Positions 56,722 through 64,000 of a DNA stretch of 64,000 bases are shown here, piece after piece. The stretch is taken from assembly GCF_007859935.1 (NCBI RefSeq), contig NZ_SJPO01000005.1, positions 124,001-188,000 on the forward strand. The letters are read 5' to 3'. Position numbers and translations under genes: made by a program. The notes under the pieces are model-generated. The model did no database searches. It saw nothing but the letters and a program-made list of their open reading frames with translations, and had not been told where the DNA came from. The stretch comes from Posidoniimonas polymericola (lineage in GTDB: Bacteria > Planctomycetota > Planctomycetia > Pirellulales > Lacipirellulaceae). Within the stretch, counting starts at the first letter, position 1; the number at the start of each line of letters is the position of its first letter.

Positions 56722-58200
56722 ATGAAACTTTCAGGTCGTTCCGATTCGACGCCCCGGTTCCTTGCCCGGCTTGGTCTGTTGGTTGCCGCGTTTTCGGCCC
56801 CCGCCGCGGCGGACGGAGCCACCGCAGCGACCTCCGACGGTCCGGTGCTGGTCCGCGACTGGGGCTACCAGCTGCAGGGCGGGCCGGGCGAAGAAGGCCT
56901 GCAGCCGGCAGGCCTGGCCGCCGCGCCGCACGACCTGATCGTGATGGATTTTTCGGCCTACGGCGATGAGGGATCGAAGTTCACCGCGCAGCAGATCGCG
57001 GACGTTAAGCACAGCGTCGGCGGCGATGGGTCGCGCAGGGCGGCGGTTGCGTACGTTTCGATCGGCGAGGCCAGCGAGTTCCGCAGCTACTGGGACGCCG
57101 GCTGGACCGCGTCCGGCGCCGCCGACAGCCCGCTGACCGCCGCCGCGCCGAACTGGCTGGGACCGACCAACCCCGATTGGCCCGAGTCGCGGAAGGTCCG
57201 GTACTGGGACCCGGCCTGGCAGACGGCAATCTTCAACGAGGGCGGAACGGGCTGGCTCGATCAGGTAGTCTCGCAGGGCTTCGACGGCGCCTACCTCGAC
57301 ATCGTCGACGCGTACTACTTCTGGGGCAACGAGGCGCAGCCCGCCGACGCCCGCCCTGGCGATCCGCTCAATGGGCAAGCCGCCGCGCGGCGGATGGCAG
57401 AGTTTGTTGTGGCCATGACGGCCCACGCCCGCCAGACCAACCCGCAGTTCTTTGTCATCCCGCAGAACGGCGAGTTCATCCTCAGCGACCTCGCCAATGG
57501 CCCCTCCCCGCAACCCGCGGACGGCCAGTTGCGGGCCGACTACCTGGACGCGATGTTCGCCATCGGTATCGAAGACATCTACTACCGCGGCGACGCGGAC
57601 GTCAACAACCCACTTAACGTTGACGCCGACAAGGTGCAGGTGCTGAAGGACGACTTCCTGGCCGCCGGCAAGGCGGTGTTGGTGGTCGACTACCTCAGCA
57701 CGCCGGGGTCGGTTGCCTCGTTCGAGTCGCTCGCCCGGTCGGACCAGTTTGTGCCGTACGCGGCGCCGACGCGAGATCTCGACCGGCTCGGGCCGCCGGC
57801 GCCCTCGTTGGCGGCCGACTTCAACCAGGACGGGGTGATCGACGCCCAGGACCTGGCGGTGTGGGCCGCTTCGTACGCGGCCACGGCCGGTCTCGACGCC
57901 GACGCGAATCACGACGGCCGCATCGACGCGGCCGACTACACCGCGTGGCGCGACGCGGCGGCCGCTTTGAATCCGGCCCTGACTTCGACCCCGGAGCCGA
58001 GCGGGACTGCAATTCTGGTCGTGTTACTCGCACTGTGGCCGCGCCAAAAACTCAGGAGAATCGCCCTAACCCTTTGCCAGAAAAGCACTTGCCGGCGCCG
58101 GCCAACCGCCGGTTGGGACTCCAGCCGCGCCGCACGTAACGGGCGGCGGCGGTTGCCGTATGAGGGTGCAGTCGTAGTATCGGGCGGTAGTGATTCGTAG
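56722..58200 (+). CDS. Exported GH114/TM1410-like glycoside hydrolase with dockerin-like repeat
   Basis: 492 residues. A signal peptide (about 1-32, RLGLLVAAFSAPAAA) precedes a TM1410/GH114-type barrel (about 40-340): WGYQLQGGPG, LIVMDFSAYGDEGSKFT, AYVSIGEASEFRSYW, and FDGAYLDIVDAYYFWG, where the acidic residues would be catalytic. The family hydrolyses alpha-galactosaminide-type polysaccharides. A dockerin-like pair of calcium loops follows (DFNQDGVIDAQDLAVW and DANHDGRIDAADYTAW, about 374-415). The C-terminus has TPEPSGTAILVVLLALWPRQ, a degenerate PEP-CTERM signal, but 49 extra residues follow. It starts 1 nt after the methyltransferase stop. Confidence 0.82.
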   Translation: MKLSGRSDSTPRFLARLGLLVAAFSAPAAADGATAATSDGPVLVRDWGYQLQGGPGEEGLQPAGLAAAPHDLIVMDFSAYGDEGSKFTAQQIADVKHSVGGDGSRRAAVAYVSIGEASEFRSYWDAGWTASGAADSPLTAAAPNWLGPTNPDWPESRKVRYWDPAWQTAIFNEGGTGWLDQVVSQGFDGAYLDIVDAYYFWGNEAQPADARPGDPLNGQAAARRMAEFVVAMTAHARQTNPQFFVIPQNGEFILSDLANGPSPQPADGQLRADYLDAMFAIGIEDIYYRGDADVNNPLNVDADKVQVLKDDFLAAGKAVLVVDYLSTPGSVASFESLARSDQFVPYAAPTRDLDRLGPPAPSLAADFNQDGVIDAQDLAVWAASYAATAGLDADANHDGRIDAADYTAWRDAAAALNPALTSTPEPSGTAILVVLLALWPRQKLRRIALTLCQKSTCRRRPTAGWDSSRAARNGRRRLPYEGAVVVSGGSDS

Positions 58201-58378: not shown

Positions 58379-60553
58379 ATGCAACCTAGCGTCACGAGGC
58401 AACCTAGCGTCACGAGCCGCGCTACCCAGCTCGCCACTTCCCCGGGCGGGTCGATGACCTCGGCGGCCGAGTCCGCCCCGAGCCTGGTGCACGCGCTCTC
58501 TGCCATGAGCGAGGCGGTCCCCACCAACATCGCCTACACCTTCCTTGCTGACGGCGAGCAGGACGAGCAGCACATCACCTTTCGCGAGCTCGACTGGCGG
58601 GCGCGTTCCATTGCAGCGCGGCTGCAGCAGTTGGGCGAGTTTGGCGATCGGGCGGCGTTGGTGTACGAGCCGGGGCTGGAGTACATCGCGGCGCTCCTGG
58701 GCTGCTTCTACGCCGGGTTCGTCGCGGTGCCGATCTACCCGCCCGACCCGATGCGGATGCAGCGGACCCTCAGCCGCCTGCACGCCATCATGGACGACGC
58801 GCAGGCCAAGTTCGTGCTGACCGGCCGCAGCGAGTCCCAGCGGTTTGGCGCCGCGACCGCCGGCGCCGGCCAGATGGTCGTTACCGACGACATCCCCACC
58901 GAGGACGGCGCCGACTACCGCTCGCCCGAGTCGCTCGGCCACACGATCGACGGCGACACGCTCGCCTTCCTGCAGTACACCTCCGGCTCGACCGGTCGGC
59001 CCAAGGGCGTGATGCTGACGCACGCCAACCTGATGTTCAACTTCGAGCACATCAAGAAGTTCGACGAACCCGACGCGGTCGCCGTGTCGTGGCTCCCGAT
59101 GTACCACGATATGGGCCTGATCGGCCTGGTGCTGCAGGTGCTGCAGAGCGGCCGGCGGACGGTGCTGATGTCGCCGCTGTCGTTTGTGAAGCACCCGGCG
59201 CGGTGGCTCATGGCAATCTCCAAGTACCGGGCGTACGCCACCAGTGGGCCGAGCTTTGCCTACGACCTGTGCGTGCAGAAGATCAGCGACGAGGAGCTCG
59301 CCGAGCTCGACCTCAGCTGCTGGACCCTCGCCTGCAACGGCGCCGAGCCGGTGCGGCCCGACACGCTCGAGCGGTTCGCCAAGCGGTTTGCCCCGGCCGG
59401 CTTCCGGGCCGAGACCTTCTACCCCTGCTACGGCCTGGCCGAGGCGACCCTGATCGTCAGCGGCGGCGACAAGCACGCCGCCCCAATCGTGCGGACCTTC
59501 GACGCCGAGCTGCTGACCAAAAACCGCGTGCGGCGGGTCGACGCCTCATCAGAGAGCGCCCGTGAGATTGTCGGCTGCGGCGTCAGCGTCGACGACCAGG
59601 AGATCGCGATTGTCGACCCGCAGACCTTGACCCGCTGCGAGGGCGATCAGGTAGGCGAGATCTGGGTCCGCGGCCCTGGCGTGGCCAAGGGCTACTGGGG
59701 CAACGAAGAAGCCACCGAGCAGACGTTCAACGCCCGCATCGCCGGCGCCCCAGCCAATGGTGACGAGGGCCCGTTCCTGCGGACCGGCGACCTCGGCTTC
59801 CTCGACGACGGCGAGCTGTTCGTCACCGGACGTCTGAAGGACCTGATCATTATCCGCGGCCGCAACCACTACCCCCAGGACCTCGAGCGGACGGTCGAGG
59901 GCTGCTGCGCGTCGCTGCGACGGGACCACGGCGTGGCGTTCGGCGTCGAGGTCGACGGCGAGGAGCGGCTGGTCATTGTGCAGGGCGTGCAGCGTCCCCA
60001 GAAGCTCGACCTGGAACAGGTGATGGCCGACATCCGCGCGGCCCTGATTCACGAGCACGAGGCCGCGCCGTACGCGGTGCTGCTGGTTAAAGGCGGCGAG
60101 ATCCCCAAGACCAGCAGCGGCAAGCTGCAGCGGCGGGCCTGCAAGGAGCTGTACCTGGCCGGCGAGCTGGCGGTCGCCGCCCAATGGCGCGCCGACGACC
60201 AGCCCAGCGAGGCCGCCGAAGCCGAACCAGAGGCGGCCGCACCTCAATCGGCGGCGGCGCCCAATGGCGTTGGTCGTCGCGTGTTCGACGACGTCGAGTC
60301 GATCATCCGCGAACTCAAGAACGGCTCGACGCCCGCCAAGATCAGCGAGCAGTCGTTGTTCTTCGCCGACTTGTCGATCGAGTCGATCGACCTGGTGATG
60401 CTCAACGAGATGGTCGAGCGGCGGTACGAGCAGCAGTTCCCGTTCTTCGACTTCATGGCCGACCTCGGCCGGCAGAACCAACGGGACGTGTCGATGGGGC
60501 AGTTCGTCGAGTTCATCACGGTCAATCTGCCGAGCGACGCGGCGAACAACTAG
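58379..60553 (+). CDS. Fatty-acyl-AMP ligase with C-terminal acyl carrier domain (FAAL-ACP)
   Basis: 724 residues. The adenylation domain (about 40-610) has the P-loop LQYTSGSTGRPKGVMLTHAN, the FAAL-type AVSWLPMYHDMGLIGLVLQ, YGLAEATLIVSGGD, and the late FLRTGDLGFLDDGELFVTGRLKDLIIIRGRNHYP-type block (PQD follows, as in FAALs rather than acyl-CoA ligases). The C-terminal domain (about 640-715) is an acyl carrier protein with the phosphopantetheine site ADLSIESIDLV, Ser669. It would activate a fatty acid as the adenylate and load it on its own carrier. The first 13 residues come from a tandem 18-bp duplication. It is followed by a hydrolase and an MMPL transporter on the same strand. Confidence 0.92.
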   Translation: MQPSVTRQPSVTSRATQLATSPGGSMTSAAESAPSLVHALSAMSEAVPTNIAYTFLADGEQDEQHITFRELDWRARSIAARLQQLGEFGDRAALVYEPGLEYIAALLGCFYAGFVAVPIYPPDPMRMQRTLSRLHAIMDDAQAKFVLTGRSESQRFGAATAGAGQMVVTDDIPTEDGADYRSPESLGHTIDGDTLAFLQYTSGSTGRPKGVMLTHANLMFNFEHIKKFDEPDAVAVSWLPMYHDMGLIGLVLQVLQSGRRTVLMSPLSFVKHPARWLMAISKYRAYATSGPSFAYDLCVQKISDEELAELDLSCWTLACNGAEPVRPDTLERFAKRFAPAGFRAETFYPCYGLAEATLIVSGGDKHAAPIVRTFDAELLTKNRVRRVDASSESAREIVGCGVSVDDQEIAIVDPQTLTRCEGDQVGEIWVRGPGVAKGYWGNEEATEQTFNARIAGAPANGDEGPFLRTGDLGFLDDGELFVTGRLKDLIIIRGRNHYPQDLERTVEGCCASLRRDHGVAFGVEVDGEERLVIVQGVQRPQKLDLEQVMADIRAALIHEHEAAPYAVLLVKGGEIPKTSSGKLQRRACKELYLAGELAVAAQWRADDQPSEAAEAEPEAAAPQSAAAPNGVGRRVFDDVESIIRELKNGSTPAKISEQSLFFADLSIESIDLVMLNEMVERRYEQQFPFFDFMADLGRQNQRDVSMGQFVEFITVNLPSDAANN

Positions 60554-60626
60554 CGAGCCCAACAGAACCACGCGCGGCGGAACCGCGACGCTTCCTCACC
60601 GTCAGCTTTCCTCCTAAACCGACCGT

Positions 60627-61535
60627 ATGCCGCACACGCAAGCTACCGACGCGAGGCTGTTCTATCAGCAGGTCGGCCCCGCCGGCGCGCCGGACGTGGT
60701 GCTGATCCACGGCGTCACCGGCAACATGGCGGTGTGGATGCTGAGCGGGTTGCTGCAGAAGCTGTCGACCCAGTTCCGGGTCACCGCGTACGACATGCGG
60801 GGCCACGGCCACAGCGACACGCCCGACGCCGGCTACACCACCCGGCACATGAGCGACGACTTCGCCGCCCTGCACGAGGAGCTGGGCCTCGGCCCGGCGT
60901 ACGTGCTGGGGCACAGCTTCGGAGGAGCGGTGGCGTTGCACGCGGCCGAGCGGTTCGCCGACCGCGTGCGGGGGCTGGTGCTGTCGGACCCGTTCGTCCC
61001 GGCCCTGCACTACCTGCAGAAGGACCCCCGCAAGTGGAAGGGCTACCTCAAGTACAAGATCAACGCGGCGACCGCCGGCATGTTCATCGGCGGCGACCTG
61101 TGGAACCTCAGCGCGATGCTCGAGCAGGCCGCGAACCTCTCGCCCCGACGCCGGGCGATGTTTGTCAAACGCGCCGGTCAGGGCGCGCTCGACCGGCTGA
61201 CGCGGCTGCACCCCACAACCTGCGGCGTTGACGTGGCCGACCCGGCGGGTCTTGAAGAGCCGGACCTCAGCGGCATCGAATGCCCGGCGGTCTGCCTGTT
61301 CGGCGAGCACTCGCCGTTCATGCCGATGGGCGAGCGGCTGGCCGAGCTGCTGCCGGCCGCCACGACCGACACGGTCCCCAAGGCGCAGCACTTCGGCTTT
61401 GAAGAGAACCCCGCCGAGTTCGTCGACCGGGTCGAGAAGGCTTTGTGCGGCATGGCGGGCCTGGAACCCACGGCGCCGTCGAAGCCGTTGGCCGCGGCCC
61501 GGTCAAACGTGATGACCAACTCGCAACAGGTTTAG
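60627..61535 (+). CDS. Alpha/beta hydrolase
   Basis: 302 residues with a classical hydrolase fold: VVLIHGVTGNMAVWM (oxyanion region), YDMRGHGHSDTPDAGY, nucleophile elbow VLGHSFGGAVAL (Ser97), and AQHFGFEENPAEFVDRV with the catalytic His; the acid is probably in GEHSPF. It could be a thioesterase or acyltransferase that releases or transfers the acyl group from the preceding carrier domain. It begins 73 nt after the FAAL-ACP stop. The plain sequence alone would also fit an esterase of another function. Confidence 0.88.
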   Translation: MPHTQATDARLFYQQVGPAGAPDVVLIHGVTGNMAVWMLSGLLQKLSTQFRVTAYDMRGHGHSDTPDAGYTTRHMSDDFAALHEELGLGPAYVLGHSFGGAVALHAAERFADRVRGLVLSDPFVPALHYLQKDPRKWKGYLKYKINAATAGMFIGGDLWNLSAMLEQAANLSPRRRAMFVKRAGQGALDRLTRLHPTTCGVDVADPAGLEEPDLSGIECPAVCLFGEHSPFMPMGERLAELLPAATTDTVPKAQHFGFEENPAEFVDRVEKALCGMAGLEPTAPSKPLAAARSNVMTNSQQV

Positions 61536-61574
61536 GCCGCGGGCGGAGCGGCTCGAAAGCAAAGGACGCGACTC

Positions 61575-63899
61575 GTGGGCAGCGGAACGGCGAACCAGCA
61601 ACGGCTTCTCCTGGCGGTAGTCGCCACCGCGGTCGCCACGCCGTTCCTGATTATCGGCGCCATCCGCACGATGGACGGCATCCACACTTCGGCGCTGCAC
61701 TGGCTCGACGAGGCCGAGCCGGCCCGTATCGAGTACGAGATTTTTACGCAGCAGTTCGAAGGGGGCAACTTTGTCCTGATCTCGTGGCCCGGCTGCACAC
61801 TCGACGACCCGCGGCTCGCCAAGCTAGAGTCGACCCTCGACCACTACTCCAAGGCGACGGCGCCCAAGCCCCCGCTTGTCGAGCGGGCGTTCTCCGGCAG
61901 CAGCGTGCTCGAGGACCTGCTGCGGCCCGACCTGCAGCTCACACGCCCGCAGGCGATCGCACGGCTCCAGGGCTCCCTGATCGGACCCGACGGCGAGAGC
62001 ACCTGCGTGGTGGCGGTGCTGTCGGAACGGGGCGGCCAGCAGCGGGCCGAGGGCTTCGCGTACCTTGTCGCGACCTCCGAGAAAGTCACCGGCGTCGCCA
62101 GAGAAGAGCTGCGGATCGCGGGGCCGTCGGTGGACGCCTACGCGGTGGACATCGAGAGCGATCGGAGCGTTGACTACTACGCCGCCCCCTCGGCGTTCAT
62201 CTCGTTTCTCGTCTGCTGGTGGTGCCTGCGGTCGCTAAGGTTCTCGGTCGCCATCCTGGCGGTGGCTGGCTTCGGCGAACTCCTGATGCTCGGCTCGCTG
62301 CACTACTTTGGCGTCACGATGGACGCCGTGCTGATTGTGCTTCCGCCGCTGGTGTTCGTGCTGACGGTCTCGTCGGGCATCCACCTTGTGAACTACTACT
62401 ACGATCAGGTCCGCGCCGGCGCAGGCCCGGACGCGCCGCGGCTGGCGGTCCGCCACGGCTGGGCGCCGTGCGGCATGGCCGCGCTCACCACGGCGCTCGG
62501 GCTCGGCTCGCTGCTGGTCAGCCGCATCGTGCCGGTGGCGACTTTCGGGCAGTTCGCCGCCGGGGGCGTGGTGGTCGCCGTGCTGCTGCTGTTCTTCTCG
62601 CTCCCCGGGGTGATGTCACGCTGGCCGGCGGCGCCCGAGGACGTCGCGTCGGGCTCGGCGACCAGCACGCTGGTGGTCTACCTGGTCCGCATGGCTCAGG
62701 TCGTGTGCCGGCACGCGACGCTGATCACCGCGGGCGGCATGGTGTGCCTGATTGTCGGCGGCGTCGGCCTGGCCCAGCTGCGGACCTCGATCGGCGTGGG
62801 CAACCTCTTCCCGCAGAGCCACCGGGTGGTGCAGGACTTCCGCTGGATGGAGGAGCACGTCGCGCACCTGGTGCCGCTGGAGGTCGTCATCCGCTTCCCG
62901 TCGGACGACGGGCTGCGGATGATCGACCGCCTGACGCTGCTGAACGAGATCGAGGCCTCGGTCCGCGGGGTCGCGTCGGTAGGCGGCGTGATGTCGGCCC
63001 TGACGTTCTGCCCGGAGGTTCCGACCACGCGCGGCAGCAATTCGGTGGTGCGGCGGGCTCAGTTCAACGCCCGGCTCGAGGCGAACCGCGGGCAGCTGGT
63101 TGAGAGCCACTACCTGCACGAGTCTGACGACGGCGGTCAGGACTGGCGGATCAGCGCGCGGGTATCCGGGATCCAGGACCTCGACTACCAATTGGTGCTC
63201 AACGAGCTCCGCGAGCGGGTCGACCCACTGCTGGACGAGTACGCCACGCGGCACGACTTCCGGCCCAGCGCCAGCTACACCGGCACGATGCCGTTGGTGT
63301 ACGGCGCCCAGCACGCGCTCTTGCAGGACATGTTCTACAGCATGCTGCTCGCCTTCGTGCTGGTGTGGTTGGTGATGAGCCTCATGCTGACCGACGGCTC
63401 GGCGCGTGGCGCGGCGCGGGTCGCCTCGCTGCCGAAGGGGCTGTGGCTCGGGGCGCTGGCGATGCTGCCCAACCTGTTCCCAATTGTCGTGGTGTTTGGC
63501 GTGATGGGCTGGCTCGACTGGCCCGCCGACATCGGCTCGACCATGACCGCCTGCGTCGCACTCGGCATCGCCGTGGACGACACGCTGCACTTCCTCGCCT
63601 GGTACCGCCGCGAGACCGCCAAGGGCGACTCGCCTCAGCTCGCCATCCGGCACTCGTTCCAGCACTGCGGTCGGGCCATGATCCAAACCACCGTGATCTG
63701 CGGGTTCGGTATGCTGGTTTTCGGCCTGAGCGGCTTCCTGCCGACCCGGCGGTTCTCGCTGCTGATGTTCACGCTCCTGAACTCTGCTCTGCTGGCGGAC
63801 TTAGTGTTCCTGCCGGCGATCCTCGCCAGTCCACTCGGCAGCGTGTTCGCCATCCGGACCAAACCGGGGAGCGACTCCCCCGAGGCGGCCGTGCTCTGA
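61575..63899 (+). CDS. MMPL/RND-family lipid exporter
   Basis: 774 residues from a GTG start 39 nt after the hydrolase gene. It has the RND/MMPL layout: a first helix (about 9-28), a large extracytoplasmic loop (about 30-205), a bundle of about five helices (SFLVCWWCLRSLRFSVAILA, AVLIVLPPLVFVLTVSSGIHLVNYY), a second helix and loop, and a second bundle (for example MLLAFVLVWLVMSLMLT, LGALAMLPNLFPIVVVFGVMG). The core helix ALGIAVDDTLHFLAWY contains the paired Asp residues of the proton relay. In mycobacteria MmpL proteins export lipids made by FAAL/PKS enzymes, and the context here is similar. Confidence 0.9.
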   Translation: MGSGTANQQRLLLAVVATAVATPFLIIGAIRTMDGIHTSALHWLDEAEPARIEYEIFTQQFEGGNFVLISWPGCTLDDPRLAKLESTLDHYSKATAPKPPLVERAFSGSSVLEDLLRPDLQLTRPQAIARLQGSLIGPDGESTCVVAVLSERGGQQRAEGFAYLVATSEKVTGVAREELRIAGPSVDAYAVDIESDRSVDYYAAPSAFISFLVCWWCLRSLRFSVAILAVAGFGELLMLGSLHYFGVTMDAVLIVLPPLVFVLTVSSGIHLVNYYYDQVRAGAGPDAPRLAVRHGWAPCGMAALTTALGLGSLLVSRIVPVATFGQFAAGGVVVAVLLLFFSLPGVMSRWPAAPEDVASGSATSTLVVYLVRMAQVVCRHATLITAGGMVCLIVGGVGLAQLRTSIGVGNLFPQSHRVVQDFRWMEEHVAHLVPLEVVIRFPSDDGLRMIDRLTLLNEIEASVRGVASVGGVMSALTFCPEVPTTRGSNSVVRRAQFNARLEANRGQLVESHYLHESDDGGQDWRISARVSGIQDLDYQLVLNELRERVDPLLDEYATRHDFRPSASYTGTMPLVYGAQHALLQDMFYSMLLAFVLVWLVMSLMLTDGSARGAARVASLPKGLWLGALAMLPNLFPIVVVFGVMGWLDWPADIGSTMTACVALGIAVDDTLHFLAWYRRETAKGDSPQLAIRHSFQHCGRAMIQTTVICGFGMLVFGLSGFLPTRRFSLLMFTLLNSALLADLVFLPAILASPLGSVFAIRTKPGSDSPEAAVL

Positions 63900-64000
63900 G
63901 AAAACACGGGCGCAAGTGCTTGAAGTTGGCATCCCGCCCGCCAAGAATACTGAGAGCCGCCCACCAACCGTTACCACTGCTCGCCCCTCAACCGCGCCTG

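Follow-up and report, generated by a model that had tools for sequence, protein, structure and literature searches.

A FAAL-ACP, hydrolase, RND exporter and desaturase gene cassette with a probably chimeric core in Posidoniimonas polymericola

Three adjacent genes at the end of the 64,000-nucleotide stretch of DNA analysed here (the window, positions 124001-188000 of contig C5 in the 6.26 Mb genome) raise the question of what a FAAL-ACP protein, an alpha/beta-hydrolase (HYD) and an MMPL-domain protein of the RND type may do together, where the group ends, and from which systems it was assembled. A sequence-only reading had described them as adjacent same-strand genes forming a lipid-type module that might extend past base 64000, and had compared them with the surface-lipid loci of mycobacteria. 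Reading frames and domain matches bear out the three genes, and a fourth gene of the same strand, coding for a membrane desaturase, starts 6 bases beyond the window end, so that the cluster does continue. The features are as follows.

56722-58200, plus strand: GH114/TM1410-like secreted glycosidase (Pfam GH114, 7.9e-17), a boundary marker outside the cassette
58379-60553, plus strand: FAAL-ACP didomain protein, 724 aa (699 aa from the ATG at 58454), from Pfam, NCBIfam and PDB matches and the FAAL tree
60275-60550, plus strand: ACP domain with the predicted phosphopantetheine Ser codon at 60383-60385, from the ACP tree and by alignment to stand-alone PKS-cluster ACPs
60627-61535, plus strand: HYD, 302 aa, a predicted off-loading thioesterase/acyltransferase, from Pfam, conserved residues and AF2 fold
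61575-63899, plus strand: RND/HAE3-like MMPL-domain exporter, 774 aa, from Pfam, TIGR00921 and hydropathy
63900-64000, plus strand: leader towards the desaturase gene, from adjacency, also present in the congener
64006-65019 (G000:C5:188006-189019, or L009:12007-13020), plus strand: membrane fatty-acid desaturase, 337 aa, from Pfam and histidine boxes

The genes are closely spaced, with gaps of 73 nt between FAAL-ACP and HYD and 39 nt between HYD and RND, both devoid of terminator-like sites, and 106 nt between the RND stop and the desaturase start; the start of FAAL-ACP may be 58454 instead of 58379. Downstream of the desaturase, a convergent rhamnogalacturonan-lyase-like (polysaccharide lyase) gene ends the cassette. 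The expectation that lipid, PKS or glycosyltransferase genes would follow was thus answered in part, by the desaturase, but the cassette and its neighbours gave no recognisable PKS, glycosyltransferase or sulfotransferase. No PKS-sized gene was found between about 52000 and 92000 (window coordinates), and neither a rubredoxin gene nor further desaturases among the adjacent called genes. On the upstream side, the glycosidase gene, whose product carries a dockerin-like repeat, was considered as a member of the cassette and rejected, since in the congener (G041) no such gene separates the methyltransferase gene from that of FAAL. The upstream methyltransferase gene is kept in the congener, but it lies within a common flank with Hsp70 and M41-like genes and was not retained as a member.

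The same four genes are found in the same order in G041, with 79-89% identity and dN/dS of about 0.14-0.21, which indicates purifying selection on the cassette genes. The upstream flank (Hsp70, M41-like and methyltransferase genes) is common to both species and the downstream side is different; together with the missing glycosidase gene, this defines FAAL-ACP, HYD, RND and desaturase as the conserved unit. The four-gene set was found in none of the other sampled family members (43 genomes), and the arrangement is known from these two congeneric genomes. HYD itself is restricted within the family to both species of the genus, among the genomes sampled, and it is present in 6 of 196 genomes of the order and in 71 of 397 of the class. 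Conservation of the gene order in relatives, as the sequence-only reading had anticipated, therefore holds for the congener and not for the Pirellulales in general. A general FAAL-HYD-MMPL cluster of this order was also considered and rejected, as relatives of the RND protein, of the desaturase and of other FAAL-ACP didomains occur in different contexts.

In the first protein, Pfam recognised an AMP-binding domain (4e-70) and a DIP2-like AMP C-terminal domain, and in NCBIfam the FAAL model PRK05850 scored 466 bits versus 173 bits for the acyl-CoA ligase model PRK06187. The nearest solved structure of the FAAL domain in the PDB is 7R7E (5.6e-165), the FAAL of a Picosynechococcus PKS (PMC11837247), followed by LpFAAL and FadD32, and all 15 PDB matches at E<=1e-60 are either FAALs or chains named FadD or acyl-CoA synthase, with the 7R7E FAAL group on top. 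Profile and structure matches thus place the protein among FAALs rather than acyl-CoA ligases. The ACP domain was missed by Pfam; stand-alone ACPs from related clusters can be aligned with the last ~90 aa of the protein, and the motif FFADLSIESIDLVML (FFxDLxxxSID) includes a Ser that is invariant across related ACPs. Two PPTases encoded in the same genome, one AcpS-type and one Sfp-type, could activate this ACP.

Other FAAL-ACP didomains of the class are located in NRPS loci, or beside genes whose products begin like FPHAGGG-type thioesterases, in both cases without HYD. Didomain genes near genes with type II thioesterase-like (FPHAGGG-like) N-termini were seen in L170, L171 and L176-L178, with a possible Sfp-type PPTase gene in L170 as well; these loci represent another small FAAL system. 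The genome studied here also encodes, on contig C3 (L012:7474-10809), a FAAL-ACP-aminotransferase protein of 1111 aa, class I/II and alpha-oxoamine-synthase-like. Its relatives (L136-L164), FAAL matches whose open frames span about 1122-1262 aa in most matched Pirellulales genomes, suggest a near-universal fusion in this order, the aminotransferase domain having been verified directly in the C3 protein alone and, for one relative, through similarity over the full length.

HYD matches Abhydrolase_1 (2.6e-31) and has the nucleophile elbow GHSxGG of the alpha/beta-hydrolase fold. In an alignment of 26 sequences S97, D121 and H255 are invariant and E227 is at least 90% conserved; the codons are at 60915 for S97 and 61389 for H255, with D121 (60987) or E227 (61305) as the candidate acid. 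The AF2 model (pLDDT 88.5) adopts the same fold, with 2XUA as the best structure match (6e-18), and its PDB matches are generic esterases, compatible with both hydrolysis and transfer. Among the loci fetched via HYD, 37 of the 39 of its close clade have an ACP, as a gene or as a domain, 18-331 nt upstream of it, and in most of them this ACP ends a PfaA-like (PUFA-synthase-like) PKS pair, for which the NCBIfam PfaA model gives 1171 bits, over its cut-off. HYD is mostly followed by genes for MacB/LolCE/FtsX-like ABC permeases and ATPases, sometimes with SDR and methyltransferase genes in between, and in two loci (L039 and L129) ACP-HYD-ABC occurs with no PKS. With an ACP directly upstream that mostly ends a PfaA-like PKS, HYD is best read as an enzyme that would act on the terminal ACP of its clusters, with an exporter as a common companion.

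A further locus, from an uncultured Pirellulaceae MAG (L042), encodes FAAL, ACP and HYD as a single 1029-aa ORF. This fusion shows that the three constitute a unit, and the idea of a lipid-type module was well founded. From adjacency and this fusion only, we infer that HYD would act as a thioesterase/acyltransferase on acyl-ACP. No desaturase or RND exporter gene was recognised near the fusion gene, nor lipid genes in the 14 kb around it, on what is a MAG contig placed on long branches, and the best desaturase match in that genome has 24% identity.

The tree of HYD groups the window protein with those of G041 and L042 in a single clade (94/98) that lies within the PKS-linked HYDs, with the L121-L125 group as its neighbour, and the ACP tree places the window ACP with the L124/L125 PKS-cluster ACPs (98/99), with which it has FMADLGRxxQRD in common; this tree was built on 84 columns and does not resolve the placement of L042. 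On the other hand, the FAALs of the window, G041 and L042 form a clade (98/97) inside a 100/99 group of mainly NRPS-locus FAALs. The three trees agree in pointing to an NRPS-type loader joined to a PKS-type ACP-HYD tail. The core of the cassette is probably a chimera of single origin, made of an NRPS-type acyl loader and a PKS-type ACP and off-loader. The joining apparently took place once, with an ACP-HYD tail that probably derives from PUFA-like clusters; in this genus an RND protein apparently took over from the ABC exporter of the tail. The L121-L125 clusters carry PUFA-like PKSs; SDR and two methyltransferase-like genes separate HYD from the ABC exporter there, as read in L125 and L122. 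The MacB-like ABC permease/ATPase type of the PKS-HYD clusters was also seen in FAAL-NRPS loci (L179, L174 and L181), so that this exporter travels with several lipid synthases.

The RND protein belongs to the MMPL-domain superfamily (PF03176, 2.3e-8, 33.8 bits, gathering cut-off 20.5) and consists of two halves with hydrophobic segments by hydropathy. It fits best the HAE3 model TIGR00921 (1.5e-26, under its cut-off), and no sequence relative was found in the PDB. Relatives are present in most of the 43 family genomes, with best identities of 35-40%. The desaturase matches FA_desaturase (PF00487, 1.1e-32), and its histidine boxes HETAH, HIRHH and HGPHH have histidines that are invariant in 12 relatives. 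The best NCBIfam model gives 31 bits and none was assigned, and a search for JamB-like references in 72,556 plasmids rendered no match at E<=1e-5. As its AF2 model is weak (pLDDT 70.8) and matched only two chains of a chloroplast motor complex, it was not used to assign a specificity. The closest relatives of the desaturase come from planctomycetes and lie away from FAAL loci; eleven other family genomes have proteins of ~50% identity, and neither FAAL nor HYD was found beside the family relatives of the desaturase or of the RND protein in the loci read. Since both families are common elsewhere without FAAL, their link to the core rests on the two congeneric genomes. Family-wide relatives of the desaturase were seen near an SDR and a FemAB-like acetyltransferase gene (L017-L022 and L027, the latter gene identified by Pfam in L020), which suggests a second, unrelated desaturase context.

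What the cassette does can be approached from these parts. We consider it an even call that the four genes constitute a self-contained cassette for the loading, modification and export of a fatty acid, built around the chimeric core. FAAL, judging from its family, would adenylate a free fatty acid and load it onto the phosphopantetheinylated ACP; the desaturase would add at least one unsaturation, perhaps while the chain is bound to the ACP, with acyl-lipid or the released product as alternative substrates; HYD would recognise the ACP of the PKS-tail type and off-load the chain, either by transfer to an acceptor or by hydrolysis; and the RND protein, from its family and position, would export the lipid. 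Chain building by NRPS or PKS would be skipped, with a ready-made fatty acid entering the off-loading end directly. Transfer is slightly favoured, because FAAL-ACP and a hydrolase alone would run a futile cycle if HYD merely hydrolysed the loaded acyl group, although the argument falls if a modifying enzyme acts in trans. This reading must accommodate an L042 locus with neither desaturase nor RND exporter gene nearby, the abundance of both families outside FAAL contexts, and the resemblance of HYD to generic esterases by profile and fold. More tentatively, FAAL-ACP-HYD could be an acyl ligase/transferase that passes a carrier-activated fatty acid to an acceptor without NRPS or PKS and that, with a genus-level desaturase and RND pump, makes a new class of exported lipid. 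The cassette matters as a probable natural chimera of an NRPS loading end and a PUFA-like polyketide off-loading end, and as a clonable system of four genes for probing the widespread ACP-HYD-exporter tail of planctomycete lipid clusters. With HYD so widely spread through the sampled class, knowing its activity should shed light on a large number of orphan clusters.

It can also be the case, although we find it rather unlikely, that the product is of the alkyne or polyyne type, with the desaturase working in several rounds on a chain still bound to the ACP, in the manner of JamB with JamC-bound acyl, HYD freeing an acetylenic or polyunsaturated acid as a thioesterase, and the RND protein exporting it. 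The enzyme set is that of an alkyne cassette (FAAL, desaturase and ACP) plus a thioesterase, the histidine boxes of the desaturase are intact, and published screens by these three domains reported two Planctomycetes genomes (PMC8406139). The single desaturase, where polyyne clusters have three, and the missing rubredoxin argue against it, as do the lack of plasmid matches and the low NCBIfam score of the desaturase, the position of its nearest relatives outside FAAL loci, and the grouping of HYD with PKS tails. Less probable still is acyl salvage or membrane remodelling, in which a soluble FAAL-ACP and HYD would move scavenged fatty acids for the envelope, with RND and desaturase serving general homeostasis and no specialised export. 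The stand-alone fusion of L042, in surroundings where no lipid genes were recognised, and the wide occurrence of both membrane families would agree with this; a four-gene order kept in the congener in spite of changes in both flanks, and the exporters that follow ACP-HYD tails in most loci elsewhere, would not.

The analogy with mycobacterial surface-lipid loci (FAAL, chain builder and MmpL) is weak. A FAAL gene does adjoin that of an MMPL-domain exporter, and other FAAL systems in the same genome could be taken to suggest that elongating enzymes are encoded elsewhere. However, no PKS gene was seen in the cassette, the RND protein gave 62 bits with the MmpL/actII model TIGR00833, far under its cut-off of 875, and the trees of ACP and HYD lead to PUFA-like clusters and that of FAAL to planctomycete NRPS clusters, so that we regard a locus of this type as very improbable. 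That the cassette is what remains of a larger, decayed NRPS or PKS lipid cluster and no longer makes a product might explain the grouping of FAAL with clusters of NRPS type and of ACP-HYD with those of PKS type, but is hardly credible and already disfavoured in view of four intact ORFs with conserved catalytic residues, purifying selection, and the same chimera present in fused form in the genome of L042.

No described equivalent of the cassette was found in PHROGs or in literature searches, and its parts are best compared with four kinds of known systems. Mycobacterial FadD (FAAL)-Pks-MmpL loci likewise combine the FAAL class with an MMPL-domain RND exporter in one locus, but the cassette is devoid of a PKS and its exporter is not an MmpL by the curated model. 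FAAL-ACP didomains, an arrangement already known (PMC11837247), occur in lipopeptide NRPS/PKS systems such as HapA and in the L011 cluster of the same genome, and the cassette FAAL falls in the planctomycete NRPS FAAL clade, whereas its ACP is of a different type and HYD takes the place of the following NRPS or PKS. The L011 cluster (L011:161-12366, about 390-402 kb on C5) is of lipopeptide type, with a FAAL-ACP-C-A-PCP NRPS, a FAD monooxygenase-like protein and a second NRPS-like protein. PUFA-synthase-like (Pfa) clusters of Planctomycetota, of which types I and J were described without a characterised product (PMC3098273), have ACP and HYD homologous to those of the cassette, in the same order and with an exporter next to them. 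The cassette, in contrast, has FAAL in place of the PKS, RND in place of the MacB/LolCE-like ABC exporter, and an additional desaturase; it encodes no PfaA-like KS-AT-ACP-KR megasynthase and has just the ACP-HYD tail in common with PUFA synthases. Finally, in JamABC and in the polyyne clusters (cay, pgn, cepacin and collimonin), as predicted for the cassette, FAAL loads an ACP, and as in the cassette it is accompanied by a PF00487 membrane desaturase, the polyyne clusters adding a thioesterase to this set (PMC8406139, PMC11837247). The cassette does hold FAAL, FA_desaturase and ACP in one locus, the domain combination used to screen for alkyne cassettes (PMC8406139), but not the full set of three desaturases, thioesterase and rubredoxin that accompanies FAAL and ACP in polyyne clusters. 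It differs from both in that its ACP is fused to FAAL and of the PKS-tail type, its single desaturase is of a planctomycete lineage, its HYD groups with PKS tails and its exporter is an RND protein, with no rubredoxin or extra desaturases seen. By analogy, JamABC and the polyyne clusters offer the nearest functional logic to the cassette, while its closest evolutionary connection, as read from the trees, is to the PUFA-synthase-like and lipopeptide clusters of planctomycetes.
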